A DNA stretch of 47,722 bases from an uncultured Bacteroidia bacterium (GTDB lineage Bacteria; Bacteroidota; Bacteroidia; J057; CALAJH01), in assembly GCA_937922655.1 (NCBI GenBank), contig CALAJH010000044.1:1-47722 (forward strand), in the 5' to 3' direction. The notes under the pieces are model-generated. The model was not told the origin of the DNA and did no database searches. It saw only the letters and a list, made by a program, of their open reading frames with translations. Positions 3,020 through 40,120 of the stretch are shown piece after piece (position 1 is the first letter of the stretch; every line of letters begins with the position of its first letter). The position numbers and the translations under genes were made by a program.

Positions 3020-3280
3020 TTAACGGGACAAGCCGCGATGGACGACGGTAACGGCGACGTCGAGCAGGTTGATGGCGCCGTCGCCGTTGGCGTCGAGGTA
3101 GAGGTTGTTGACGGCCTGCCCCTGAAACGACGATTGCGAAAGCCACCCCGGACCCGCCCGATAGGCTTGCCAAAGCGTGCCTTGTTGCGGACGCGCGGGA
3201 CCGGCGAAACCGTAAGCGCCGGCGGTGAAAAAATAATCGGCCAAATTGACGAGGCCGTCGTTGTTGGCGTCGCCGGGCCA
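3020..3280 (-). repeat. 86-residue dockerin-like terminal domain, copy 1 (SBBP protein)
   Basis: This encodes the terminal 86 residues plus stop. Domain numbering: W1-P-G, calcium loop 1 at 4-15, GPAR at 27-30, GTLWQAY at 34-40, calcium loop 2 at 63-74, RGLSR at 82-86. It aligns without gaps to copies at 15361, 28270 and 36482. Confidence 0.8.
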
Positions 3281-4687
3281 AACGGGGGCAAAGGCGCAGG
3301 CTTGGGCCACAAAGGCGTTGATTTGCGAACCGGGGGCCGTCAGCGTTTGCGATCCGAACGTCGCCGTGGCCGAAAAATATCCCGCCGCGTACACCTCGCC
3401 GTAACCATTGACGGTAACGGCGTTAATCGATTCGCCGCCCGTACCGCCGACGCGCACCGCGCTCAACAACGGCCCGCTGTTGTCGTATTTGACGATAAAA
3501 CCGTCGTATCCGCCCGCGGAAGCAAGCAGAAAACTTCCGAAAGCGGCGGACGCAAAAAACTGACCGACCACGTGAACGTTGTTTTGAGGGTCGATTGCGA
3601 TGCCGTAGGCTTCGTCCCAATCGGCGGCGCCGCCCCCTTTGGCCGCCCAACGCACGTTACCCGAACTCGAGTACGAGGCAACGAAAACGTCCCTGTCGAA
3701 CAAACCGCCCACCGCCGTCAATACCGGTTGGGTGGGAAAGGTTATCGAACCGAAAAAATTGCCCGCCAAAAAGATGCGCCCGTTGGGGTCGGTGGCGACG
3801 CAGGTGGCGATGTCGATGTCGCTTCCGCCCGCGGTTTGCGACCAAATTTCCGCGCCGTTGGTCGACGAAAACTTGGCGACGAAAACGTCGAAATTAAGGC
3901 CCTGCGGCGTGGCGGTACGTACGTTCGTGCCAAAATTGACCGCGCCCGTAAACGAACCGACGGCGACAAGATTGCCCTGAGGGTCGACGGACAAGCCCGT
4001 GATAAAGGCCGAGTTGTCGGAACCGGTCGAAGTGGTGGTTTTGACCCAAGTCAAATTGCCGGCGGCGTTGTAAGCGGCGACGAAAGCCTGCCAATTGGCG
4101 CCGACCTCGACAACGGTTTCGGCAAAAGCGGCGCTGCCGGTAACCTCCCCGCCAACGAACACGGTTGCCGAGGCGTCGAGGGCGAGAGCGTAAGCGCCGT
4201 CGCGGCCGATTCCACCGGCACGCCGCGCCCATTCAAAGCCGGCGCCGGGGTTGATTTTGGCAACGAAAACGTCGTCGTCGTCGGGACCGCCGACGGCGTT
4301 GAGGGTCGTGGTTCCGAAGCTTGCCGTGCCTTTAAAGGTTCCGCAAAGATAGATGTTGCCCGAAGCGTCGACGGCGAGGCCCCCCGGGGTTTCGTCCTTG
4401 CCCGCGCCGCCGGCGCTCCACGCGTGCGTAACGCTTCCGTCGTCGCTCATGCGCAAAACGAACAAGTCCACGCCCGTACCCGAGGCCGTCAAGCTAAAAC
4501 TTCCGAACGTCGCCGTTCCCGTAAACACCCCGTAAACGTAAAGGTTGCCCGAAGCGTCGCGGGTGATTTTCGAGCCCTCGTCGCGACCCGTCGAACCGTA
4601 GTTGCGCGTCCATTCCCACCCGCACGGTTGGCTCCAAGCGCCCGCCGCCGTCGTCATTGCCATTGCCAAAATCAACGCCTTTTTCAT
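3020..4687 (-). CDS. Secreted SBBP seven-repeat propeller protein with dockerin-like C-terminus
   Basis: The product is 555 residues from ATG 4687; the frame stays open further upstream but runs into nuoA and lacks a signal sequence, so this start is preferred. Residues 1-20 are a signal peptide ending AWS|Q. Seven SBBP-type repeats follow (each with a core like LAVDASGNIYLCGTFKGTASFG and a W-A-GG connector), a number that would close a seven-bladed beta-propeller. The last 86 residues are the dockerin-like domain shared with three other proteins in this window: first calcium loop DANNDGLVNLAD, second DANGDGAINLLD, ending RGLSR. No T9SS sorting domain is present. Predicted to be exported and displayed or released; binding partner or ligand unknown. 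A TATCTTTG promoter element lies 20-27 bases upstream. Confidence 0.85.
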   Translation of the reverse strand: MKKALILAMAMTTAAGAWSQPCGWEWTRNYGSTGRDEGSKITRDASGNLYVYGVFTGTATFGSFSLTASGTGVDLFVLRMSDDGSVTHAWSAGGAGKDETPGGLAVDASGNIYLCGTFKGTASFGTTTLNAVGGPDDDDVFVAKINPGAGFEWARRAGGIGRDGAYALALDASATVFVGGEVTGSAAFAETVVEVGANWQAFVAAYNAAGNLTWVKTTTSTGSDNSAFITGLSVDPQGNLVAVGSFTGAVNFGTNVRTATPQGLNFDVFVAKFSSTNGAEIWSQTAGGSDIDIATCVATDPNGRIFLAGNFFGSITFPTQPVLTAVGGLFDRDVFVASYSSSGNVRWAAKGGGAADWDEAYGIAIDPQNNVHVVGQFFASAAFGSFLLASAGGYDGFIVKYDNSGPLLSAVRVGGTGGESINAVTVNGYGEVYAAGYFSATATFGSQTLTAPGSQINAFVAQACAFAPVWPGDANNDGLVNLADYFFTAGAYGFAGPARPQQGTLWQAYRAGPGWLSQSSFQGQAVNNLYLDANGDGAINLLDVAVTVVHRGLSR

Positions 4688-13899: not shown

Positions 13900-15162
13900 T
13901 TAGGGTTGGGCGGCGGAATCGGGTTTGGACGCGGCGGGAACGGGACGCGGGGCCTTTCTTCGCGCCGTCAAAAAGTTGGTCAGCGTCGGATTGCCGTAGC
14001 CGAGGCCGAAGTCCACGTTTTTGCGCGTCGTATCGCGTTGGTAGGCTTGGACTAGGTCGGGTTGGTAATAGTTGCGGAAAATGGGAATGGGCGTAACGTA
14101 GTTGCCGTAAAGGCGAACGTCGAAAGTGTTTTTGTCAATCATTCGCCACGGTAGGCCCGTGTCGTCCTGCATGAGAAAATCGGAATTTTCCAGAACGATG
14201 TCCCGGACGATGGAAAAGCCGGCGTTGTGCATGAGGTAAGAGGCGGATTTGACGTAGGTCGTCGTCGGAGAAAGGGCAAGCAAATATTCGGTCAAATTTT
14301 TTGAGCGGCTTAGAGCGGGGTCTTCGGCGTTGAACGAAAAATATTGCAAGGTTTGTATCGGTTTGCCCTTGTGCTTGCGGAACTGAATCTCGACGCCGGT
14401 GACGGAGGTGTCTTTGGGGTTTTGCATGATTTTCGAGGAGTCGGTGAGATAGACGATTCGGCGTTCGGAATTGAGGTGAAAACGCTTGACGTCGAGCACC
14501 TCGTTTTCGCGCAAAGCCATGAGCAGCATGAGTATGGGCGTAACGCCCGAAAGTTCGGCGCGGTGAAGTTCGACGCTCATGTCGAGGGTCATGAAAAAGT
14601 TGAGGCGCATGATGTCGTCGAGGGCCGTTTGGATGTTGCGCAGATTGTAGTCGTAACGGGCGCGGGAAAGTTTGAAAACGTCGGGGGGCGTGCCTTCTTG
14701 TTCCAAGCCGAACATGACGTACTTTTTCGCGCGGGGGAAAAGGGTGTGGATGGTGATGAAATCGGGGCCGCTGAAGGGGTAAAAGACGGTGCGGTCGAGC
14801 TTGCGCACGTCGCCGAATTCGCTTTCGGCGAAGGCCTCCAACTTGGCCAAGTGTTGTTTTTTGACGTTCCATTCGGCTTGCAGCACCCGGCGGTGGCGTT
14901 CGGTTTCGGGCAGTTTTTCCAACGAATCCAAAACACTTCCGGGCAAGGGGTCCAAGCCCGCCAAAAGCCGGGCCAAATCGTTCCAATAGCGGTCGAAAAC
15001 GGGTTCGGGTGGAGGAGGAGGCGATGTTTCGACCGTCTGCTTTTTCGATTCTTGTTTGCCGCCGCACGCCGCCGCCCCCAGCGCCGCCAACATCGTCAAC
15101 GTCAATAGTCCGAACTTTAATCTTTTCACGTCGTCGAAAAAATAGGACGCAATTTTACGCAT
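13900..15162 (-). CDS. Conserved lipoprotein of unknown function
   Basis: The product is 420 residues from ATG 15162 (MRKIASYFF...). A hydrophobic stretch at about 18-33 ends GAAAC|GGKQ, a lipobox-like site, followed by a low-complexity linker with a run of prolines. The body is a single globular region; a recognisable block is FYPFSGPDFITIHTLFPRA near residues 104-122, with KYVMFGLEQEG just after. I recall similar YPFSGPDF proteins as unnamed conserved hypotheticals but cannot assign a function. The frame extends upstream to 15315, but that part is arginine-rich, lacks signal features and is unlikely to be translated. It lies downstream of the subtilase gene on the same strand, separated by 198 bases. 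Confidence 0.75.
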   Translation of the reverse strand: MRKIASYFFDDVKRLKFGLLTLTMLAALGAAACGGKQESKKQTVETSPPPPPEPVFDRYWNDLARLLAGLDPLPGSVLDSLEKLPETERHRRVLQAEWNVKKQHLAKLEAFAESEFGDVRKLDRTVFYPFSGPDFITIHTLFPRAKKYVMFGLEQEGTPPDVFKLSRARYDYNLRNIQTALDDIMRLNFFMTLDMSVELHRAELSGVTPILMLLMALRENEVLDVKRFHLNSERRIVYLTDSSKIMQNPKDTSVTGVEIQFRKHKGKPIQTLQYFSFNAEDPALSRSKNLTEYLLALSPTTTYVKSASYLMHNAGFSIVRDIVLENSDFLMQDDTGLPWRMIDKNTFDVRLYGNYVTPIPIFRNYYQPDLVQAYQRDTTRKNVDFGLGYGNPTLTNFLTARRKAPRPVPAASKPDSAAQP

Positions 15163-15360
15163 TTCATCCCCGATTTTGAAGCGTGTGTACATTTTGTGGT
15201 CAAAAAACGGATACCATTGGATGATGCGAAAAACGGCGGGCTTCCCGCTTAAACCGAAGGGCCTTGACCGTCTCGAAAATCGCCTCGGCTGTGGAAGGCG
15301 CGGGCGGCGGCCCAAAAATTTTGGCGGAAGAAGCGCGTCGTCGTGTTTTCGGCGCTTGTT

Positions 15361-15621
15361 TTAGCGCGTAAAGCCGCGTGCGGCGACGGTAAGCGCGACG
15401 TCGAAAAGATTGACGATTCCGTCGCCGTTGGCGTCGGCGTAACGGTCGTTGACGACCCGTCCGTTGACGTGGGAAAGGGTGTTCCATGGCAAAGGGGCGG
15501 CATAGGCTTGCCACAGGGTTCCGGCGACGCTTCTTGCCGGCCCCGTGCGTCCATAGGCGGCGGCGGTAAGGTAAAAGTCGGCGACGTCGACGGCCCCGTC
15601 GGCGTCGCCGTCGCCGGGCCA
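15361..15621 (-). repeat. 86-residue dockerin-like terminal domain, copy 2 (subtilase)
   Basis: Gap-free alignment to the other three copies. This is the most diverged first loop (DGDADGAVDVAD), but all calcium-ligand positions remain acidic or Asn-like. GPAR, GTLWQAY, VND and the final RG(L/F)(S/T)R are kept. Confidence 0.8.
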
Positions 15622-16992
15622 AACGAATTCGGGATTAAGGCCCGAAACCCAACGCAAAGCCGCAAAACCGTCGGGAATGCCGTAGCCGTAAAGACTGTCG
15701 GGGTTGGCGAAGCGGTCCGACGAACGAACGATGGCCTCGTGGGTGGCGTAACCCGCCGCATAAGGCGCGGCCTGCAACAAACACGCCGCCAATCCGCTTA
15801 TCAACGGCGCCGAAAACGACGTTCCCGACGCCGTCCCGATAGCCCCCGTGTACGACTGAAACGTCGCGGACTGCCCCATGGCCATGACGTCGGGTTTGAT
15901 GCGCCCGTCGAAGGTCGGGCCGCGACTGCTAAAACCGCTGCGCACCCGCAAAGCATTGACCGAACCGCAAGCCAAAACGCTGTCGCCGTCGGCGGGCGCG
16001 ATGACGTACCCCCACGAATTGTTGCCCTCGTTGCCCGCGCTATTGACGACAACCATGCCGCGCGACGCCGCCAAATCCGCCGCCACCGTAATGACCGTCG
16101 TATTGCCGTCCATATCGACGTAGGTATGGTCGCCGATGCCGCCGTCGAAGGTCAGGTAACCGAGCGAGGTTTGGCAAATGTCCGCGCCCAGTTGGTCGGC
16201 GCGTTCGGCGGCGGCCACCCAGTTGTACTCTTCGGAAAGCGTTTCGCTTGCGCCGTCTTCGGTACGGAAAAGATAGAACGACGCGCCGTAAGCCGGACCT
16301 ATCAACGTGCCGGGCAAATACCCCGCCAATACCGACAGGACCGCCGTACCGTGACCGCCGACGTCGAACACCGTCGAATCGTCGTCCACGTAATCGTACC
16401 AACCCAAAATCCGTCCCTCGTCGCGCATGGCCGCAAAAGCCGAAAGCGCATCGACGTTCAAAAAACCGTCGTCGAAAACGGCGACGACCACCCCGCGCCC
16501 CGAATATCCCAAGGCATGCAAGGTGTCCGTGCGAATCATGCGGTTTTGGTTCAAAGAATTGCCGTAAGTCAAACTATGGGATTGTTGGACTTCGGCGACG
16601 GCTTCAACGGACAAATCGCGCACGGCCTGCAAACGGGCGCAAGGACGCACCTCTTTGACGAAGTCGAACGCGCGTATCGTTTCGTATTGTTCGGTGGAAA
16701 GGCGACAGGCGGCGGCGTTGAGCCAACGCGAGGCGTATTTGACCGTCGCCCCCGTTGCCGCGACGGCGTTAAGGTAGGCTCCGGCGACGGGCGCGTCGTG
16801 AACGTCCCACGGCGCCCCCGCCCTTTGCCGACGCAACCGGGCCCGCACATCGAAAAACTCCGCGATTTCTCGTTCCGAAACCGCCGGTTTGTCCCTAAAA
16901 AAAACCCAATAGTCGTTTTGGGCGCTCAACGGCGACGTTGACAAGACAATCAATACCCAAATTTGACTCCATGCTTTTAACGGTTTTATCAT
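15361..16992 (-). CDS. Secreted S8 (subtilisin-like) serine peptidase with dockerin-like C-terminus
   Basis: The product is 543 residues. A signal peptide ends LSA|Q at about residue 24. An N-terminal region (about 25-150) resembles a propeptide or inhibitor-like part. The catalytic domain has the full S8 triad: Asp174 in AVFDDGF, His214 in GGHGTAVLS and Ser392 in GTSFSAP, with the oxyanion Asn321 in SAGNEG. The last 86 residues (458-543) are the shared dockerin-like domain, with loops DGDADGAVDVAD and DANGDGIVNLFD, ending RGFTR. Predicted to act outside the inner membrane, probably on the cell surface. There is no T9SS sorting domain, so the terminal domain is the only visible tether or tag. 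A promoter match lies 30-70 bases upstream. Confidence 0.92.
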   Translation of the reverse strand: MIKPLKAWSQIWVLIVLSTSPLSAQNDYWVFFRDKPAVSEREIAEFFDVRARLRRQRAGAPWDVHDAPVAGAYLNAVAATGATVKYASRWLNAAACRLSTEQYETIRAFDFVKEVRPCARLQAVRDLSVEAVAEVQQSHSLTYGNSLNQNRMIRTDTLHALGYSGRGVVVAVFDDGFLNVDALSAFAAMRDEGRILGWYDYVDDDSTVFDVGGHGTAVLSVLAGYLPGTLIGPAYGASFYLFRTEDGASETLSEEYNWVAAAERADQLGADICQTSLGYLTFDGGIGDHTYVDMDGNTTVITVAADLAASRGMVVVNSAGNEGNNSWGYVIAPADGDSVLACGSVNALRVRSGFSSRGPTFDGRIKPDVMAMGQSATFQSYTGAIGTASGTSFSAPLISGLAACLLQAAPYAAGYATHEAIVRSSDRFANPDSLYGYGIPDGFAALRWVSGLNPEFVWPGDGDADGAVDVADFYLTAAAYGRTGPARSVAGTLWQAYAAPLPWNTLSHVNGRVVNDRYADANGDGIVNLFDVALTVAARGFTR

Positions 16993-25800: not shown

Positions 25801-28530
25801 ATGAAAAGATTATCGTCATTTTTGGCGTTGGCGCTCTGGACTTGCGCGACGACGCTCCATGCCCAAGAAGGGACGTACATCGTCCACCCGGTACAAGGGC
25901 TGATTCCCATCGGCGGAGGGGCCAACATCCCCATTCCGAAAAACGTCAATAAAACCAACATCGGCCCCGACACGCTTCGTTTCGACGACCACTGGCTGGC
26001 CACCGACTTCGACTGCTTCGCTTATCTGCCCACAAAGCTGAGCATCGGTTATTTGGGTGGGCCGCTCTACAACATGCAACCCGTTTTCGGAATCAATTCT
26101 TACGTTGGCGAACAAGGCTTGGGAATACCCGTACCGCAACGTCCGTGCCATCAGGCCCAAATGTTGGGCATGTACGTTTGGTTCGTCGGCGACAACGAAG
26201 TCGTTGGCACGCCCGACGACTTCCAGCTCCGCGTCTACGATTATCCGGCTTATCCGAACGTCGGCGGCGCCATCGGCTTGGGTACGCTTCTGGGAACGAA
26301 AACCTTCCAACTCGACCCGTTCAGCTACGAACCCAACAACCCCTTCGGCGCCGGCAACTACATTGCCATGAACGCACCCGTCAATTTGACCGACAACGTT
26401 TTCATCGGCATTACCACTTCCGGCCCCGCCATCAACGACACCATCAATTTCGCATGGACCGCGCCCGACGACGAAGGCGTCGATTGCGGCGAGGACTATT
26501 GGTATTTTCGTTTGACGCGCGTTTCGGACGGCGCCGTCTTCGGTCCCTACCGCATGCAACAGGTTTTCCTTGCCGATATCGGCAACCCGATGTTTTTCCC
26601 CGTCATTCGCTATGTTTACAGCGGCGAAACGTCGGCGACGGTGGAAATAACTCCGGGCAACAGCGTCAATGTTTGTCGGGGCGAAAGCGCCAATTTAACC
26701 GCGAGCGTGGTCGGCGGCGGAAGCTATACGTACACGTGGTCGCCGGCAACGGGTTTGAACACGACGACGGGCGCGGAGGTCGTCGCCTCCCCGACGCAAA
26801 CCACGTTCTATACCGTCAATGTTTCGCAGGGCGAGGAAAACTGTTTGGGAACGGCGGTGGTGCGCGTCGAAGCGGTGGAAAAACCCGAGGCAACGGTTTT
26901 GACGACGCAAGCGACCAACGCGGCCAACATCGGTTCGATTAAAGCGACGGCGTACGGCGGCCTGCCCCCTTACACGTACGCTTTGAACGGCGGCGCGCCC
27001 CAAGCAGGCAATCTTTTCACGGGCCTGTCTTCGGGAAGCTACACCCTCACCGTTACCGACGCCAACGGTTGTTCGGTCAATAAAACCGTTGTGGTCGAAG
27101 AAACCCCGGACGCCGTCGTGCAAACGATTCTCGACCATTTGGTCAACGTCGAAGACGACTGCAACCTCTATCTTCCCACCCGCTTGAACGGCCCCAACGG
27201 TTTCATTGGTTATTTGGGCGGGCCGATATTCAACACGACGGACGTCTTGGGCGGTCCGCCGTCCTACGTGCGTTATCAGGGGATTGTCGTGCCGGTGCCC
27301 GAGCGCGAATGTTACGAGGCGAAATTCCGGGGGATGTACGTCTGGTTCGCCGAAGGCACCGAAGTCGTCGATACGCCCGACGATTTTGAACTCTCGGTTT
27401 TTCAATTCAACCAGCCTGCGGCGCCGGGCATTCCCGCCACGACGACCCTTCTCGGCTCTTCGACCTTCCAACTTCCTTCGACCATCGCTACGCCCGGGCC
27501 GTTCGCCGGCACGAACTTTATCCCCTTCGACGGCGACGTTACCGTGGCCGACAGCGTCGTTTTCGCCGTCAAAACCACGGGCGAGGTCAACGATACCCTG
27601 ACTTTTTATTGGTCGGCAATAGCCGAGGGGGAAAATTATAATTGCGGTCCCGACCAGTGGATGTTGCTGATACGTTACACGGACTTTCCCATGATTTCGC
27701 CGGCGTTGCCGTTGCAAAATTATCTTTTTGACGACGTGGGCAGTCCGATGATGTTTCCGGTCTTGGAATACGTACCGATATCGGCGGTGGAGGTAACGCC
27801 GTCGCAGTCGTTGGCGGTAACGTGTTCGGGAAGTACGGTGTCGTTGTCGGCGACGGCGGCGGGCGCGGGGCCCTATACGTATACTTGGGTGGCGCCCAAC
27901 GGTTCGGTCGTGGCCACGGGTCAATCCGTAACTTTTGTGCCTCAAACCACGGGCGTGTACTCGGTTTTTGCCGACGACGGGCTTGCGGCGTGCCCAAGCG
28001 CGGCGGAAGTGATTATTTCGGTGTTGCCCACGCCGTCGGTGGCGGACGTACAAGTGCAAAACGCCGTCTCGGGCAACAACGGCGCGATAACGATAACGGC
28101 GCTCGGCGGAAACGAACCCTACACTTACCTGCTCAACGACGCCGAACAACCCACCCCCGTCTTTACGGGCTTGGCGCCCGGTGTTTACGTCGCCGCCGTA
28201 CGCGACGTCAACGGATGTACCTCAGAGGGCGTAAACGTCGAGGTCTTTGCCGAAGCGGGTTACGAGGTTTGGCCCGGCGACGCCAACAACGACGGTACGG
28301 TTACCACCCTCGACTACTTCTTTACCGCCGGCTCGTATGGCAAAACCGGCCCCGCCCGTACCGAACAAGGCACGCTTTGGCAGGCGTATTTGGCGACCCA
28401 ACTCTGGGCCACCGATTCGAACTTCCAAGGCGTGATTGTGAACGACATGTACGTCGACGCCAACGGCGACGGGGTCGTCAATCTCTTTGACGTGGCCGTT
28501 ACCGTTGTCAATCGCGGTTTGAGCCGATAA
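25801..28530 (+). CDS. Secreted SprB-repeat protein with internal duplication and dockerin-like C-terminus
   Basis: The product is 909 residues. A signal peptide ends LHA|Q at residue 21. The body is one architecture used twice: an about 225-residue unit (from about 62 and again from about 444), an Ig/PKD-like segment with YTYTW, and a SprB-type repeat (about 367-435 and 748-815) with the typical GxxPYTYxLN...G.YxxxVxDxNGC pattern. Shared landmarks of the large unit are YLPT, YLGGP, GMYVWF, TPDDF and PMFFPV/PMMFPV. The final 86 residues (824-909) are the shared dockerin-like domain ending RGLSR. Probably a surface adhesin or display protein; SprB repeats are best known from the gliding adhesin SprB. 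A strong terminator follows. Confidence 0.88.
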   Translation: MKRLSSFLALALWTCATTLHAQEGTYIVHPVQGLIPIGGGANIPIPKNVNKTNIGPDTLRFDDHWLATDFDCFAYLPTKLSIGYLGGPLYNMQPVFGINSYVGEQGLGIPVPQRPCHQAQMLGMYVWFVGDNEVVGTPDDFQLRVYDYPAYPNVGGAIGLGTLLGTKTFQLDPFSYEPNNPFGAGNYIAMNAPVNLTDNVFIGITTSGPAINDTINFAWTAPDDEGVDCGEDYWYFRLTRVSDGAVFGPYRMQQVFLADIGNPMFFPVIRYVYSGETSATVEITPGNSVNVCRGESANLTASVVGGGSYTYTWSPATGLNTTTGAEVVASPTQTTFYTVNVSQGEENCLGTAVVRVEAVEKPEATVLTTQATNAANIGSIKATAYGGLPPYTYALNGGAPQAGNLFTGLSSGSYTLTVTDANGCSVNKTVVVEETPDAVVQTILDHLVNVEDDCNLYLPTRLNGPNGFIGYLGGPIFNTTDVLGGPPSYVRYQGIVVPVPERECYEAKFRGMYVWFAEGTEVVDTPDDFELSVFQFNQPAAPGIPATTTLLGSSTFQLPSTIATPGPFAGTNFIPFDGDVTVADSVVFAVKTTGEVNDTLTFYWSAIAEGENYNCGPDQWMLLIRYTDFPMISPALPLQNYLFDDVGSPMMFPVLEYVPISAVEVTPSQSLAVTCSGSTVSLSATAAGAGPYTYTWVAPNGSVVATGQSVTFVPQTTGVYSVFADDGLAACPSAAEVIISVLPTPSVADVQVQNAVSGNNGAITITALGGNEPYTYLLNDAEQPTPVFTGLAPGVYVAAVRDVNGCTSEGVNVEVFAEAGYEVWPGDANNDGTVTTLDYFFTAGSYGKTGPARTEQGTLWQAYLATQLWATDSNFQGVIVNDMYVDANGDGVVNLFDVAVTVVNRGLSR
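28270..28530 (+). repeat. 86-residue dockerin-like terminal domain, copy 3 (SprB-repeat protein)
   Basis: Loops DANNDGTVTTLD and DANGDGVVNLFD, with GPAR, GTLWQAY, FQG, VND and final RGLSR all in register with the other copies. Confidence 0.8.
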
Positions 28531-34855: not shown

Positions 34856-36742
34856 ATGAAAAAAATCTTGGCGCTCGCCGTTTTCACCTATTACGGCACG
34901 TTGAAGGCACAACCGCCCGTCAATGCCACCATCGGTATTACGGATATGTTTCACAACTACGATTGCGGCAACGACAGCGGCATCGGCGACCCCGAACCCC
35001 GATGGCTTTTTTGGGTCGGTCTGGACGGTGCCAACTTTACCGGTCCCACCTGTTCCTACAACTGGGGCATCAACACCGTCTCTTGCGGAATCATTACCAA
35101 CAACCTGCCCCAAACCCTGCGGACGGTAAGCAACACCACGGCCTCCGAGTTCAGTCTCGACGCCGAAACGTGGGAGGAAGATTGCAACGGCAGTGAATGC
35201 ACTTATAATTCGTCGTGTTCGATAATACTGGCCGACGACCGCTCTTCGGGCAACCACTACACCCGCACGCGCACCCACAACATCGTTATTCGCGCCGCCG
35301 CCCCCTGCCAAATCAACCAGTACGGTTGGGCGTTTCCGTCGGACAACCGTTACGACCATCGTCCGCGCGTATCTTGGGAGCCGGTGGGTACGGCGGGCGC
35401 CGTTTCCAACGGCGGCGGTTCGGTTTTGTGCGTCGGAGAAACGGGTAATTTTTCGGTCTCGGGGGTAACGTGGGCGCACGGCCGTCAGGATTGGCGCGTC
35501 GTTCCCGTGACGGCCGTCGGCGGTACGACCCCCTCGGGCGCCGACCTTCAATCCGGACAGTTCGTCCCGACGTCGGCCTCGGCGCAATCCTTCAATATTT
35601 CACAAACCTTTTCCCAACCCGGATTTTACATGGTCGAAACCCGGGGCGTGAACACGTGTACGGGCGCGGCGTCTTCGAGCTTTGGACGGGTGTGGGTGGA
35701 AGTGCGTTCGTCGTCGGTGGGCGGCACGCTTTCGGCCGCGGGTACGGAAGTATGTTTTGGCGAATGGAATCCCGGGGCGTATTTTTCGCTTTCGGGCAAC
35801 GGCGGAAGCGTGGTGCGTTGGGAGCGCCAACGCACGGGGTTTGCGGCCGAAAGCGTAAATTCGGCGACGTTCCCGGCGGCGTGGACGGCGGCGAGTTTTG
35901 CGGCCGGTTCGTGGCGCGTACGGGCCTATTCGCAAAACGCGCCCTGCAACGAGGCCGCGTCCAACGACGTGTTTTTGACCGTTTCGGAACCGACGGTTGC
36001 GGGCACGTTGGTCGGCGGTCCGGGAGCGACGATTTGCGAAGGCCAAGCCGTGGGCGCCTTTTCGATTGCGGGGGCCGTGGGCGCCGTCGTTCAATGGGAA
36101 CGCAGCGTCAACGGCGGCCCGTTTGAGACCGTTGCCGGCGCGGCTTATCCCAATTGGAGCTTTGGCGTGGGCGCATGGGTCGTGCGCGCGCGCGTCCAAA
36201 ACGGTTCCTGTGCCCCGCAATACGCCTCGCGTTCGTTCACCGTATTGCAAAACCCGCAAATCAACGTCTCCGGAAACACGACCGTCGAAATCGACGAGGG
36301 CGCGACGCTCGTCGCCTCCGGCGCCATGAACTACGTCTGGCAACCCGGCAACGTACAATCCGCCACGCTTTCGGTCAACCTCCCCATCGGCCAATACACC
36401 TATACCGTTACCGGTACGGACGGCAACGGATGTTCGGCCTCGCAAACCGTAACTTTAACCGTTACGCCCACGCCTTTGACGTGGCCCGGCGACGCCAACA
36501 ACGACGGCGCGGTTACCGAATCCGACTTTTTCCTCATCAACGCCGGTTTGGGTAAAACGGGTCCCGCACGGACGGTCGGCGGCGTGCTGTGGCAGGGTTA
36601 TCCTTCCGCGCCGCTTTGGCCCACGTCCACCAACTTTCAAGGCGCTCCGATAAACGACCGCTTCCTCGACGCCAACGGCGACGGGGTTATTACGCTTTTC
36701 GACGCGGCGGTATCGGTCGTTCGTCGCGGACTTACGCATTAA
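34856..36742 (+). CDS. Secreted Ig-like repeat protein with dockerin-like C-terminus
   Basis: The product is 628 residues from ATG 34856, chosen because a signal peptide (MKKILALAVFTYYGTLKA|Q) starts there and the promoter element ends 20 bases upstream. A cysteine-containing N-terminal domain (about 20-195) is followed by beta-sandwich repeats rich in Ser/Thr/Gly/Val, including two similar units with GSVVRWERQ and GAVVQWERS, and a PKD/SprB-like segment with YTYTVTGTDGNGCSA near 520. The last 86 residues are the shared dockerin-like domain ending RGLTH. Probably an adhesin or structural surface protein. A terminator lies about 25 bases after the stop codon. Confidence 0.85.
   Translation: MKKILALAVFTYYGTLKAQPPVNATIGITDMFHNYDCGNDSGIGDPEPRWLFWVGLDGANFTGPTCSYNWGINTVSCGIITNNLPQTLRTVSNTTASEFSLDAETWEEDCNGSECTYNSSCSIILADDRSSGNHYTRTRTHNIVIRAAAPCQINQYGWAFPSDNRYDHRPRVSWEPVGTAGAVSNGGGSVLCVGETGNFSVSGVTWAHGRQDWRVVPVTAVGGTTPSGADLQSGQFVPTSASAQSFNISQTFSQPGFYMVETRGVNTCTGAASSSFGRVWVEVRSSSVGGTLSAAGTEVCFGEWNPGAYFSLSGNGGSVVRWERQRTGFAAESVNSATFPAAWTAASFAAGSWRVRAYSQNAPCNEAASNDVFLTVSEPTVAGTLVGGPGATICEGQAVGAFSIAGAVGAVVQWERSVNGGPFETVAGAAYPNWSFGVGAWVVRARVQNGSCAPQYASRSFTVLQNPQINVSGNTTVEIDEGATLVASGAMNYVWQPGNVQSATLSVNLPIGQYTYTVTGTDGNGCSASQTVTLTVTPTPLTWPGDANNDGAVTESDFFLINAGLGKTGPARTVGGVLWQGYPSAPLWPTSTNFQGAPINDRFLDANGDGVITLFDAAVSVVRRGLTH
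36482..36742 (+). repeat. 86-residue dockerin-like terminal domain, copy 4 (Ig-like protein)
   Basis: Loops DANNDGAVTESD and DANGDGVITLFD. This copy has the most substitutions in the insert (GVLWQGY for GTLWQAY, IND for VND) but keeps exact length and the RGLT end. Confidence 0.8.
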
Positions 36743-36843: not shown

Positions 36844-38067
36844 ATGAATCGAGAATTGTTTGAGGCGGCGCCGCTGGCGGAAAAAATGCGCCCGCAAACT
36901 TGGGACGAGGTCGTGGGTCAAAAGCGGGTCGTCGAGGCGTTGCGTCGCCTCTCCAAACCCCATTCCATGATACTTTGGGGGCCGCCCGGAACGGGAAAAA
37001 CAACGTTGGCGTACCTCGCGGCCCAAAGCTCGGGCCGACCGTTCAAACGGCTTTCGGCCGTCGAGGCAGGGGTCAAAGAACTGCGTGCCGCCTTGGACGT
37101 TTCCGGCGCCCTGCTTTTCATTGACGAAATCCACCGCTTCAACAAATCCCAACAAGACGTTTTGTTGCACGCCGTCGAAACGGGAAAAACCGTTCTCATC
37201 GGAGCGACGACGGAAAATCCGTCGTTCGAACTCAATGCGGCCTTGCTTTCCCGCTGCAAGGTATACGTTTTGGAAGCCTTGGCGCGAGACGACGTCGCAC
37301 AACTCGTCGAACGGGCGAAAGCGTTCGTCGGAGCATTCGGTCTTACCGACGACGGCCTCGATGCAATCTACGCATTGAGCGGGGGCGACGGCAGAAAGGC
37401 GCTCAACCTTTTGGAATGGACTTTGGAACGGACGCGCCAAGTGGACGGCCCCGCGGTGCGTCAAGTGGCGGAAAAAAACGTGCGTTACGACAAAACCGGC
37501 GACATGCACTACGATTGCGTTTCGGCGTTTATCAAAAGCGTGCGCGGTTCCGACCCCAACGGCGCGATATATTGGTTGGCGCGAATGATAGAGGGCGGGG
37601 AGGAGGTTCGCTTCATCGCCCGCCGACTGATGATATTGGCCTCGGAGGACGTAGGCAACGCCAATCCCACGGCGTTGGCCTTGGCCGTGGCCTGCGCCCA
37701 AGCCTGCGACTACGTGGGTTTGCCCGAAGCAAGAATCGTTTTGGCGCAAACCACGGCCTATTTGGCGGCATCGCCCAAATCCAACGCCGCCTATTGCGCG
37801 ATAGAAGAGGCCTTGGCGGCGGTGCGGCGGGGCGACGACCCGCCCGTTCCCCTACATCTGCGCAACGCCCCCACCCGTCTTATGAAAGACTTGGGTTATG
37901 CCGCAGGGTACAAGTATTCCCACGACTTTTCGGGCGCAGAGGGCAATCAGGAGTTTTTGCCCGCGGGCTTGGAAAATACGACTTTTTACCGTCCCAAACC
38001 CATAGGCCGCGAAAAAGACCTGCTCGAATTTCTCCGCCGCCAATGGCCCGACAAATACGACTATTAA
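36844..38067 (+). CDS. rarA: Replication-associated recombination protein A (AAA+ ATPase)
   Basis: The product is 407 residues from ATG 36844; an in-frame start at 36754 would read through the terminator hairpin and is rejected. Conserved family opening LAEKMRPQTWDEVVGQ near residue 11, Walker A GPPGTGKT at 46-53, Walker B LLFIDEIHRFN near 98, sensor 1 GATTENPSFELNAALLSR, and the C-terminal tetramerisation part with RGSDPNGAIYWLARM. RarA acts at stalled replication forks with SSB and RecA. The downstream cohesin-like gene is convergent and overlaps by four bases (38064-38067). Confidence 0.96.
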   Translation: MNRELFEAAPLAEKMRPQTWDEVVGQKRVVEALRRLSKPHSMILWGPPGTGKTTLAYLAAQSSGRPFKRLSAVEAGVKELRAALDVSGALLFIDEIHRFNKSQQDVLLHAVETGKTVLIGATTENPSFELNAALLSRCKVYVLEALARDDVAQLVERAKAFVGAFGLTDDGLDAIYALSGGDGRKALNLLEWTLERTRQVDGPAVRQVAEKNVRYDKTGDMHYDCVSAFIKSVRGSDPNGAIYWLARMIEGGEEVRFIARRLMILASEDVGNANPTALALAVACAQACDYVGLPEARIVLAQTTAYLAASPKSNAAYCAIEEALAAVRRGDDPPVPLHLRNAPTRLMKDLGYAAGYKYSHDFSGAEGNQEFLPAGLENTTFYRPKPIGREKDLLEFLRRQWPDKYDY

Positions 38068-38846
38068 CGGGCGGACAAACGATAAGCAAACCGTTCCGTT
38101 TCGCCGTTGAGGGTCAGCAGATAAATGCCGGTTTGCGCGACGACAAACGGCAAACGAACGATTTGGGCGGGGGAATCGACGGGGTATTCGGCGATTTTTT
38201 TGCCTGCGGCGTCGGCGATTTCGACCGTTCCTTTGAACGGCGCGGCCAAAAGAATTTGGATTTCCGAACCGGTTTGCACGGGATTGGGAAACAAAACGGG
38301 GCGCGGCGCCTTGGACGTCGTCCTGTTTGTTTGTTCGACGATTTCCACATCGGCCACGTGTTCGGCCAAAGCGAAGGCGTAGATTTGGTTGTCGTAAAGC
38401 GTGGAGTTTTTCAGGCGTATTTCGGCGCGTTGGCCGACGGGCGCGTCGTTCTTGACGCGAAACTTGACAATGGCGGCCACGCCTTTGACGTTTTCGATGG
38501 ATTTTTCCGCGCCCAAAAACGGCAAATTGAGTTTAAGTATGCCTTCGGCGGCTTGGGAAACGTTGACGTCGGTGGCCGAAAAGTCGGAGCCTTCCACGCC
38601 CCAAAAGCCGTTGTTCCAATCGAAGCCGACAAATTCGAGCTTGGTCGCGTCGAAATGAATATCAAAGCCCAAACCGAAAACGACGGCGGCCTTGGCCTCG
38701 TCGCTACCCAAAATCACGGGCGTTTCAATAATTTGTTCGCGCACGGCCTGTGCCGGCGGAAAAACCGTTAAGGGGGGAAGCGTTTGCGCCATTAGACCGA
38801 CAAACGGCGCAAAAACGGCCGTTAATAAAGCTATCGGCTTTCTCAT
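38064..38846 (-). CDS. Secreted cohesin-like domain protein with T9SS type A sorting domain
   Basis: The product is 260 residues. Signal peptide ends LMA|Q at residue 20. Residues about 24-171 show the cohesin pattern: PVILGSDE at the first strand, VVFGLGFDIHFDATKLEFVGF (an A-x-x-F-x-L-x-Y-D-type core), EGILKLNLPFLG, GVAAIVKFRVKNDAPVGQRAEIRL and a closing ADVEIVE strand. Residues about 183-260 form a typical T9SS type A C-terminal domain: FPNPVQTGSEIQI, VEIADAAGKKIAEY, AQTGIYLLTL and a short basic end. It should be exported by Sec, moved across the outer membrane by T9SS and held at the surface. Cohesins bind dockerins; four dockerin-like proteins are encoded in this window. The cohesin call is by pattern, not by search. 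Confidence 0.75.
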   Translation of the reverse strand: MRKPIALLTAVFAPFVGLMAQTLPPLTVFPPAQAVREQIIETPVILGSDEAKAAVVFGLGFDIHFDATKLEFVGFDWNNGFWGVEGSDFSATDVNVSQAAEGILKLNLPFLGAEKSIENVKGVAAIVKFRVKNDAPVGQRAEIRLKNSTLYDNQIYAFALAEHVADVEIVEQTNRTTSKAPRPVLFPNPVQTGSEIQILLAAPFKGTVEIADAAGKKIAEYPVDSPAQIVRLPFVVAQTGIYLLTLNGETERFAYRLSAR

Positions 38847-38938: not shown

Positions 38939-40120
38939 TTACTTGGACTTGGGGCCGGGCGACGTTGTTTTTTCGTCGTTTTCGATTTTTCCACCGTTGA
39001 TAAAAACGACGTGGTCGTCGAAGTTCATTTTTTTGTTGGCGAGGCGCACGCCTTTCCACGTGTGTTTGCAGAGGTTGGTGAGCGTTCCGCCGTCGACGAC
39101 GAGTTTGGCGCCCGGGCGCAGGAGTATTTCGGCGCCTTGGGGCAAATGCAGGGTGCAACGGACGGTAAGCGTCGCGCCCGGAAGGATTTGCACGCCGCCG
39201 TGCAATTTTTTGTCGCCGTTCCATTCGACGTTTTCGGCAATGACGATGCGTTCGGCGGTGTTTTCGCACCAATCGGGAACGACGACCTTGTGAAAATCGC
39301 CTTGTTTGCCCGCGATGTGGTAATGGATGCGTCCGAGTTGACAGGCGGTGAGGGCGCGTTGGTCGGCGTTGTAGTCCATGAGGTTGTTGGAGCAGGAGTC
39401 GCCGTTCCAACAACCCGGATTTTGGGGATAGGTGGGGGTGTCGTCGCAATGGTCGTTGAGGGGCGTGCCTTTGCCGACGGTATGATAAAGGCCCATGCAA
39501 TGGCCGAACTCGTGCGCAAGGGTCATGGCCGGAAGCCAATGGTTGCGGCCGTTGAGGTAGTGTTGGTACCATGTGCAAACCGCCGCCCACGTTCCGCAAC
39601 CGATGCCGCAGGCAATGCCCGTGGCCATCAAGGCGCCGTTTTTGCCTTCGCCGACAAAAACATGGAGGACGTCCCTGCGGGCGTCGGGATTGTTCAAGAC
39701 GAACTTTTGGTAAAGGTTGCCGGCGCGTCGTGCGCGTTCGCCGGCCTTGTTTTCGGCAAACAAATCCCAATTTTCGTCGTCGTACTCGAAAACGACGCCT
39801 TCGCATACGGGCCGAACGCGGGCGTCGGCGATAAATTCGGACGCGGTGGGCAAACGCATAGGCACGTTTTCTTTGAAACGTTGCGCCGCCCCCGACACAA
39901 CGATTTGTAAAAATTCAAGGTGGGCCGCCGAATCGGGGGAAAACTGTCCTTGAAACCCGGCAACCGGGGTTTTCGGCGCAACGACGTGAAGCATGTAGCC
40001 AAACCTTACCGGCGGCGTATGCTCGGCCACGCGCGGAACGTAGTTCGCGGGGTCGTTGCACTGCCCCCACGCCGTCGACGCGCCCAACACAAACGTTATT
40101 GTCCCCAAAAGCCTCCTCAT
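38939..40120 (-). CDS. Secreted metzincin (M43/pappalysin-like) metalloprotease
   Basis: The product is 393 residues from ATG 40120. Signal peptide ends AWG|Q near residue 19. The zinc site HEFGHCMGLYH gives ligands His203, His207 and His213 with catalytic Glu204; the Met-turn is NNLMDY (Met248). Cysteines around the site (GIGCGTW, CDDTP, GCWNGDSC) fit the M43 pattern. The last about 100 residues resemble short beta-helix rungs (GATLTVRCTLHLPQGAEILL, GGTLTN) usually found before T9SS tails in larger proteins, but here the protein simply ends in a charged GPKSK tail with no T9SS and no dockerin-like domain. It starts 5 bases after yicC and the cohesin-like gene follows after 92 bases. Confidence 0.88.
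   Translation of the reverse strand: MRRLLGTITFVLGASTAWGQCNDPANYVPRVAEHTPPVRFGYMLHVVAPKTPVAGFQGQFSPDSAAHLEFLQIVVSGAAQRFKENVPMRLPTASEFIADARVRPVCEGVVFEYDDENWDLFAENKAGERARRAGNLYQKFVLNNPDARRDVLHVFVGEGKNGALMATGIACGIGCGTWAAVCTWYQHYLNGRNHWLPAMTLAHEFGHCMGLYHTVGKGTPLNDHCDDTPTYPQNPGCWNGDSCSNNLMDYNADQRALTACQLGRIHYHIAGKQGDFHKVVVPDWCENTAERIVIAENVEWNGDKKLHGGVQILPGATLTVRCTLHLPQGAEILLRPGAKLVVDGGTLTNLCKHTWKGVRLANKKMNFDDHVVFINGGKIENDEKTTSPGPKSK

Follow-up and report, generated by a model that had tools for sequence, protein, structure and literature searches.

Does a small cohesin protein with a sorting domain of the type IX secretion system (T9SS) serve, in a member of the Bacteroidia, as cell-surface receptor for secreted proteins that end in dockerin-like tags? 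The question is raised by a 47,722-nucleotide stretch of DNA from an uncultured bacterium, the whole of which is called the window here, and in which the gene for such a protein, P0001, occurs together with four tagged genes. Bacteroidetes genomes are usually reported to be without cohesins and dockerins (PMC5831590), and a search of the accessible literature for T9SS together with cohesin or dockerin in Bacteroidota yielded nothing beyond a case from the Cloacimonadota. A sequence-only reading of the window had proposed that one T9SS-anchored cohesin presents four dockerin-tagged proteins at the cell surface, as a cellulosome-like assembly with non-cellulase cargo. Judging from domain composition and gene content, we consider it fairly probable that P0001 is a minimal T9SS-delivered cohesin anchor which binds some of 22 tagged proteins in trans, beside an adaptor and a scaffoldin encoded in the same genome.

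P0001 combines a cohesin domain with a T9SS sorting tail

The gene and its parts are located in the window as follows.

38064..38846, minus strand: P0001, 260 aa, signal peptide, cohesin and T9SS type A tail (profiles and predicted fold)
38787..38846, minus strand: signal peptide of P0001, residues 1-20, then Q (sequence)
38331..38783, minus strand: cohesin domain of P0001, residues 22-172 (PF00963, 25.4 bits; fold match to 6kgc_A, Z 15.7)
38088..38294, minus strand: T9SS type A sorting domain of P0001, residues 185-253 (TIGR04183, 30.5 bits; position confirmed by the genome scan)

Stops interrupt the plus-strand reading of 38064-38846, and the open reading frame lies on the minus strand, where the translation holds all of the motifs PVILGSDE, FGLGFDIHFDATKLEF, GVAAIVKFRVKNDAPVG, FPNPVQTGSEIQI and GIYLLTL and where GC content by codon position (0.59, 0.40, 0.64) resembles that of real genes nearby. 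The translation starts with a signal peptide, judged by eye to be MRKPIALLTAVFAPFVGLMA followed by Q, in agreement with the Q-type signal peptide described earlier. Residues 40-152 matched Pfam Cohesin (PF00963) with 25.4 bits, a marginal pass at a cut-off of 24.1, and an independent cohesin profile gave the domain 20.7 bits, versus 7.0 for the best of 2000 shuffles. By sequence, the nearest PDB chains are the Acetivibrio cellulolyticus cohesins 5nrk/5nrm (E 0.003). The AlphaFold2 model of P0001 has two beta domains (pLDDT 77.8, pTM 0.58), and comparison of residues 22-172 with solved structures gave 6kgc_A as best match (Z 15.7, rmsd 2.3 over 141 residues), nearly all of the top rows being cohesins and the matches including 2w1n, 2jh2, 2o4e and 2vo8 from Clostridium perfringens. 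The fold search thus identifies a jelly-roll cohesin fold and bears out the cohesin domain that had been suggested from motifs.

The T9SS type A tail was recovered as well, residues 185-253 scoring 30.5 bits with NCBIfam TIGR04183 (cut-off 23); with Pfam Por_Secre_tail the score was 21.5 bits, below the cut-off of 27. The source genome, G000 (3.58 Mb in 84 contigs, the sole member of its family in the genome set examined), encodes SprA (2180 bits) and has 148 TIGR04183 matches, most of them above the cut-off, and P0001 accordingly shows sorting domain, signal peptide and genomic context of a T9SS type A substrate. On the same strand, the gene for P0015, a secreted HExxHxxGxxH metalloprotease without tag or T9SS tail (window 38939-40120, minus strand), ends 92 bases upstream of P0001, and an operon is possible.

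Dockerin-like tags end 22 secreted proteins and an adaptor

In all four tagged proteins of the window, an 86-aa tag forms the exact C-terminal end.

36482..36739, plus strand: dockerin-like tag at the C-terminus of the Ig/PKD-like adhesin P0006, CDS 34856-36742 (PF00404, 26.4 bits, cut-off 22.9)
28270..28527, plus strand: dockerin-like tag at the C-terminus of the SprB/Ig-repeat adhesin P0007, CDS 25801-28530 (profile searches)
3023..3280, minus strand: dockerin-like tag at the C-terminus of an SBBP beta-propeller protein, CDS about 3020-4687 (profile searches)
15364..15621, minus strand: dockerin-like tag at the C-terminus of an S8 subtilase, CDS 15361-16992 (profile searches)

If tags were spread evenly over the genome, 0.29 would be expected in the window instead of four (Poisson 2.4e-4, calculated post hoc). 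A profile made for the tag found 24 places in G000, which correspond to 23 intact tags and one broken copy, and the intact tags belong to 22 secreted cargo proteins and an adaptor; the four dockerin proteins noticed at first therefore stand for the window, and the genome-wide count is 22 secreted proteins. The broken copy, at L030 (G000:C55:41903-42079), stops matching after about 59 residues. All 23 intact tags end 0-4 residues before the stop, and most share a conserved end composed of RG and about three further residues. Profile searches confirmed that the four tagged proteins of the window are without a T9SS tail and found none on any of the 22 cargo proteins. Visual inspection showed a signal peptide on nearly all cargo proteins whose N-terminus is complete, one protein being cut by a contig end.

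That the tags are dockerin-like, as had been read from the window, is upheld by profile match and by intact calcium loops. PF00404 scored above its cut-off for P0006 and several other G000 proteins and below it for the remaining tags, and both 12-residue calcium loops, defined as two F-hand loops with D/N at positions 1, 3, 5 and 12, were complete in 17 of 17 tags checked. With 86 residues, about 37 of which separate repeat 1 from loop 2, the tag is a variant of the dockerin form of about 60-70 residues with a short linker. Canonical dockerins have about 30 residues fewer between the calcium repeats.

According to a Pfam scan, the cargo includes peptidases (two M43, S8, C25 and trypsin-like) and no cellulase domain in any of the 22 proteins. 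Other cargo domains include SBBP propellers (three), six CUB domains, LRR, fn3 and SprB, and further proteins are a glucose/sorbosone dehydrogenase (GSDH), a PETase-like hydrolase, a copper monooxygenase-like protein and one with a weak heparinase-like match.

In relatives, tag, cohesin and sorting tail are mostly fused

Searching 22 genomes of the same order with the tag profile detected the tag in 12, and the cohesin type was present in exactly the same 12 genomes. The cohesin profile for this survey had been built from tag-following cohesins plus P0001; counts with PF00963 alone overlapped imperfectly with the tags and were set aside in favour of this clade-specific profile. Tag, cohesin and T9SS tail are located on a single polypeptide in most of the 12 genomes, and the co-occurrence, in genomes that are not phylogenetically independent, is largely due to this physical fusion. 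In 46 named loci, picked by a tag-only search in which cohesins played no part, 34 of 48 tag ORFs carry a cohesin C-terminal to the tag, most with a recognised T9SS tail, and none of the 48 ends at the tag. These loci come mainly from Saprospiraceae, Flavobacteriales and other Bacteroidota, and also from KSB1 and Marinimicrobia; no close relative of G000 was found in this named collection, from which records very near G000 may be left out. Homologs of the G000 propeller and LRR cargo likewise carry the tag plus further C-terminal domains.

The internal position of the tag in relatives, followed by cohesin and T9SS tail, bears on an alternative in which a secretion or anchoring apparatus recognises the 86-residue tag as a C-terminal sorting signal and the cohesins bind other partners. 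Such a signal would fit the strictly C-terminal location of all 23 intact tags in G000, the conserved end of most of them and their presence on unrelated cargo without T9SS tail. The arrangement in relatives argues against it, as do the dockerin profile match and the intact calcium loops, and we regard the alternative as improbable.

For a natural fusion from Flavilitoribacter nigricans (L107), the predicted model had pLDDT 88.5 and pTM 0.80, versus pTM 0.58 for the two-domain P0001 and a value nearer 0.5 that we would estimate for three freely moving parts, which suggests that tag and cohesin are probably held together as a single unit and is silent on which face of the cohesin is used. Distances among the tags of fusions and among their cohesins showed a partial correlation of 0.52 and those of tags and tails one of 0.23, a weak signal.

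P0001 belongs to a small cohesin subfamily

Five cohesins are encoded in G000, in three genes: P0001, a 275-aa adaptor with cohesin and dockerin and, adjoining the adaptor gene, a 1696-aa scaffoldin whose three cohesins are accompanied by Ig-like, fn3 and SprB repeats and by a T9SS tail. The earlier idea of one T9SS-anchored cohesin is contradicted by this count. A domain scan found no CBM on the scaffoldin. The adaptor dockerin is divergent, scoring 62 bits with the tag profile when cargo tags score 97-167, and the predicted layout of adaptor and scaffoldin is one resembling a two-tier cellulosome.

In a tree of 62 cohesins, P0001, the adaptor cohesin and a cohesin from the genome G020 formed a clade (support 99/87), and the fused cohesins formed another one (97/93) that includes short stand-alone cohesin-tail proteins of four relatives. 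As P0001 is placed outside the fused clade, the possibility that it is a freshly detached fused cohesin was rejected, and the argument from fusions joins the families of tag and cohesin, not the exact pair of tag and P0001. Also rejected as orthologs of P0001 were the 246-255-aa proteins with signal peptide, cohesin and T9SS-like tail from G014, G011, G013 and G010 (L133, L134, L135 and L136, respectively), which branch with the fused cohesins; these ORFs represent a second stand-alone cohesin lineage, in genomes that also have fusions.

All three subfamily members sat in the P0001-type cohesin model and for this reason leave-one-out profiles were employed, with which the left-out member scored 37-65 bits and the best outsider 27-35, backing the subfamily. 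Among 395 Bacteroidia genomes, the P0001-type cohesin was found in G000 and G020 and in no other (the next best match had 36 bits). In the same set, four genomes passed E 1e-18 for the tag, two of them with fusions, and the close protein-terminal tag type occurred only in G000 and G020. In a sample of two genomes, the P0001-type receptor subfamily and the terminal tags travel together. A subfamily recognisable across two families and only in the two terminal-tag genomes speaks against P0001 being an ordinary surface protein delivered by T9SS, with a cohesin-fold domain that has lost its ability to bind dockerin, a reading that could draw on its barely sufficient Pfam cohesin score (25.4 vs 24.1) and on the occurrence of cohesin-like folds in proteins unrelated to cellulosomes, and that seems to us very improbable indeed.

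Because P0001 and the adaptor cohesin belong to the same subfamily, they probably share a ligand type. This common ligand type and the location of P0001, which shares its contig with four tags and lies at a distance of 1.3 kb from one of the tagged genes, argue against scaffoldin and adaptor as the real tag receptors, with P0001 binding another partner or only the divergent dockerin of the adaptor. Such a division of labour would follow the classical two-tier plan of a three-cohesin T9SS scaffoldin with an adjacent cohesin-dockerin adaptor, and the divergence of the adaptor dockerin from the cargo tags looks as if it had another specificity. We rate this alternative, the main rival, as unlikely.

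Directly downstream of the gene for the tagged S8 protease, the window contains a lipoprotein-like gene (13900-15315, minus strand), a clear homolog of which, recognised by eye, occurs in L170 (G020:C155) from about 8510; this homolog is located immediately downstream of the one gene with a terminal tag that G020 has, and the tagged proteins of the two genomes differ.

A predicted surface assembly and its closest precedents

Reading P0001 as an anchor acting in trans, the protein would be exported by Sec and then by the type IX secretion system, and its C-terminal sorting domain would put it on, or release it at, the cell surface. From the sequences we infer that its cohesin would take up the dockerin tags at the C-termini of some of the 22 secreted proteins, and in the same way cohesin-tag specificity, calcium dependence, surface location and the route of cargo across the outer membrane. 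The adaptor of the same subfamily and the neighbouring three-cohesin T9SS scaffoldin may work beside P0001 and could be a second tier. A variant in which P0001 is a trans-acting T9SS export adaptor, so that cargo docks in the periplasm and crosses the translocon with it, would let one sorting domain serve many cargo proteins, where relatives have the module fused to each cargo in cis; we give this variant little credence, and in the accessible parts of the literature searched there was no direct precedent for piggyback export by T9SS.

For the anchor and the 22 tagged proteins as a whole, the best reading of the genome would be a cellulosome-like assembly with non-cellulase cargo. The encoded parts include a multi-cohesin scaffoldin, dockerin cargo and an anchoring module, and lack a scaffoldin CBM and plant cell wall enzymes as main cargo. 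The assembly proposed at the outset is thus retained for its domains, tags and non-cellulase cargo and loses its single receptor. As in clostridial and ruminococcal cellulosomes, there are cohesin and dockerin modules, adaptor and anchoring scaffoldins and single-cohesin anchors; those cellulosomes employ SLH or sortase anchoring whereas G000 has a T9SS tail, no cellulase domain in its 22 cargo proteins and a dockerin with a long insert. Cohesin modules of Clostridium perfringens glycoside hydrolases, as P0001, show a non-cellulosomal cohesin fold that joins secreted proteins, but sit on the enzymes themselves and without T9SS. The fusions of Saprospiraceae and other Bacteroidota have three module families in common with G000, and differ in having all three on one chain and their cohesins in a separate clade.

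The closest precedent is the complex of Candidatus Stygibacter (Cloacimonadota), for which dockerin-tagged peptidases and a scaffoldin with a C-terminal surface-attachment domain were inferred (PMC8542988). Both systems have proteins that carry a signal peptide and a C-terminal dockerin, among them S8 and C25 peptidases, and a cohesin scaffoldin, in Ca. Stygibacter with a conserved C-terminal surface-attachment domain; non-cellulosic substrates were proposed there too, and both are known from sequence only (PMC8542988). Ca. Stygibacter has one 3,755-aa scaffoldin with CBM2/CBM3 (PMC8542988), in contrast to the scaffoldin of G000, in which no CBM was found; G000 in addition has a 260-aa single-cohesin T9SS protein, an adaptor and its own tag type of about 86 residues, and belongs to the Bacteroidota. 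The idea of docking is therefore not new; what is new is its occurrence in Bacteroidota, together with the minimal anchor, the adaptor and the wide spread of the fused form. One genome would lay out a T9SS-based plug-and-socket system with 22 predicted non-cellulase cargo proteins, and a fused version of tag, cohesin and tail modules is widespread among Saprospiraceae and other Bacteroidota, which raises the question whether a protein that lacks a T9SS signal reaches the surface by docking to a partner carrying one. The system also offers new candidate cohesin-dockerin pairs for protein display.

Further trans pairs are possible at L095 (Salinivenus lutea), L100 and L113 (both Marinimicrobia) and L112, where one or three cohesins are encoded by a gene of their own behind a tagged gene. 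In a Chloroflexi MAG (L089), a hydrophobic stretch and a basic tail come after the tag, similar to a membrane anchor.
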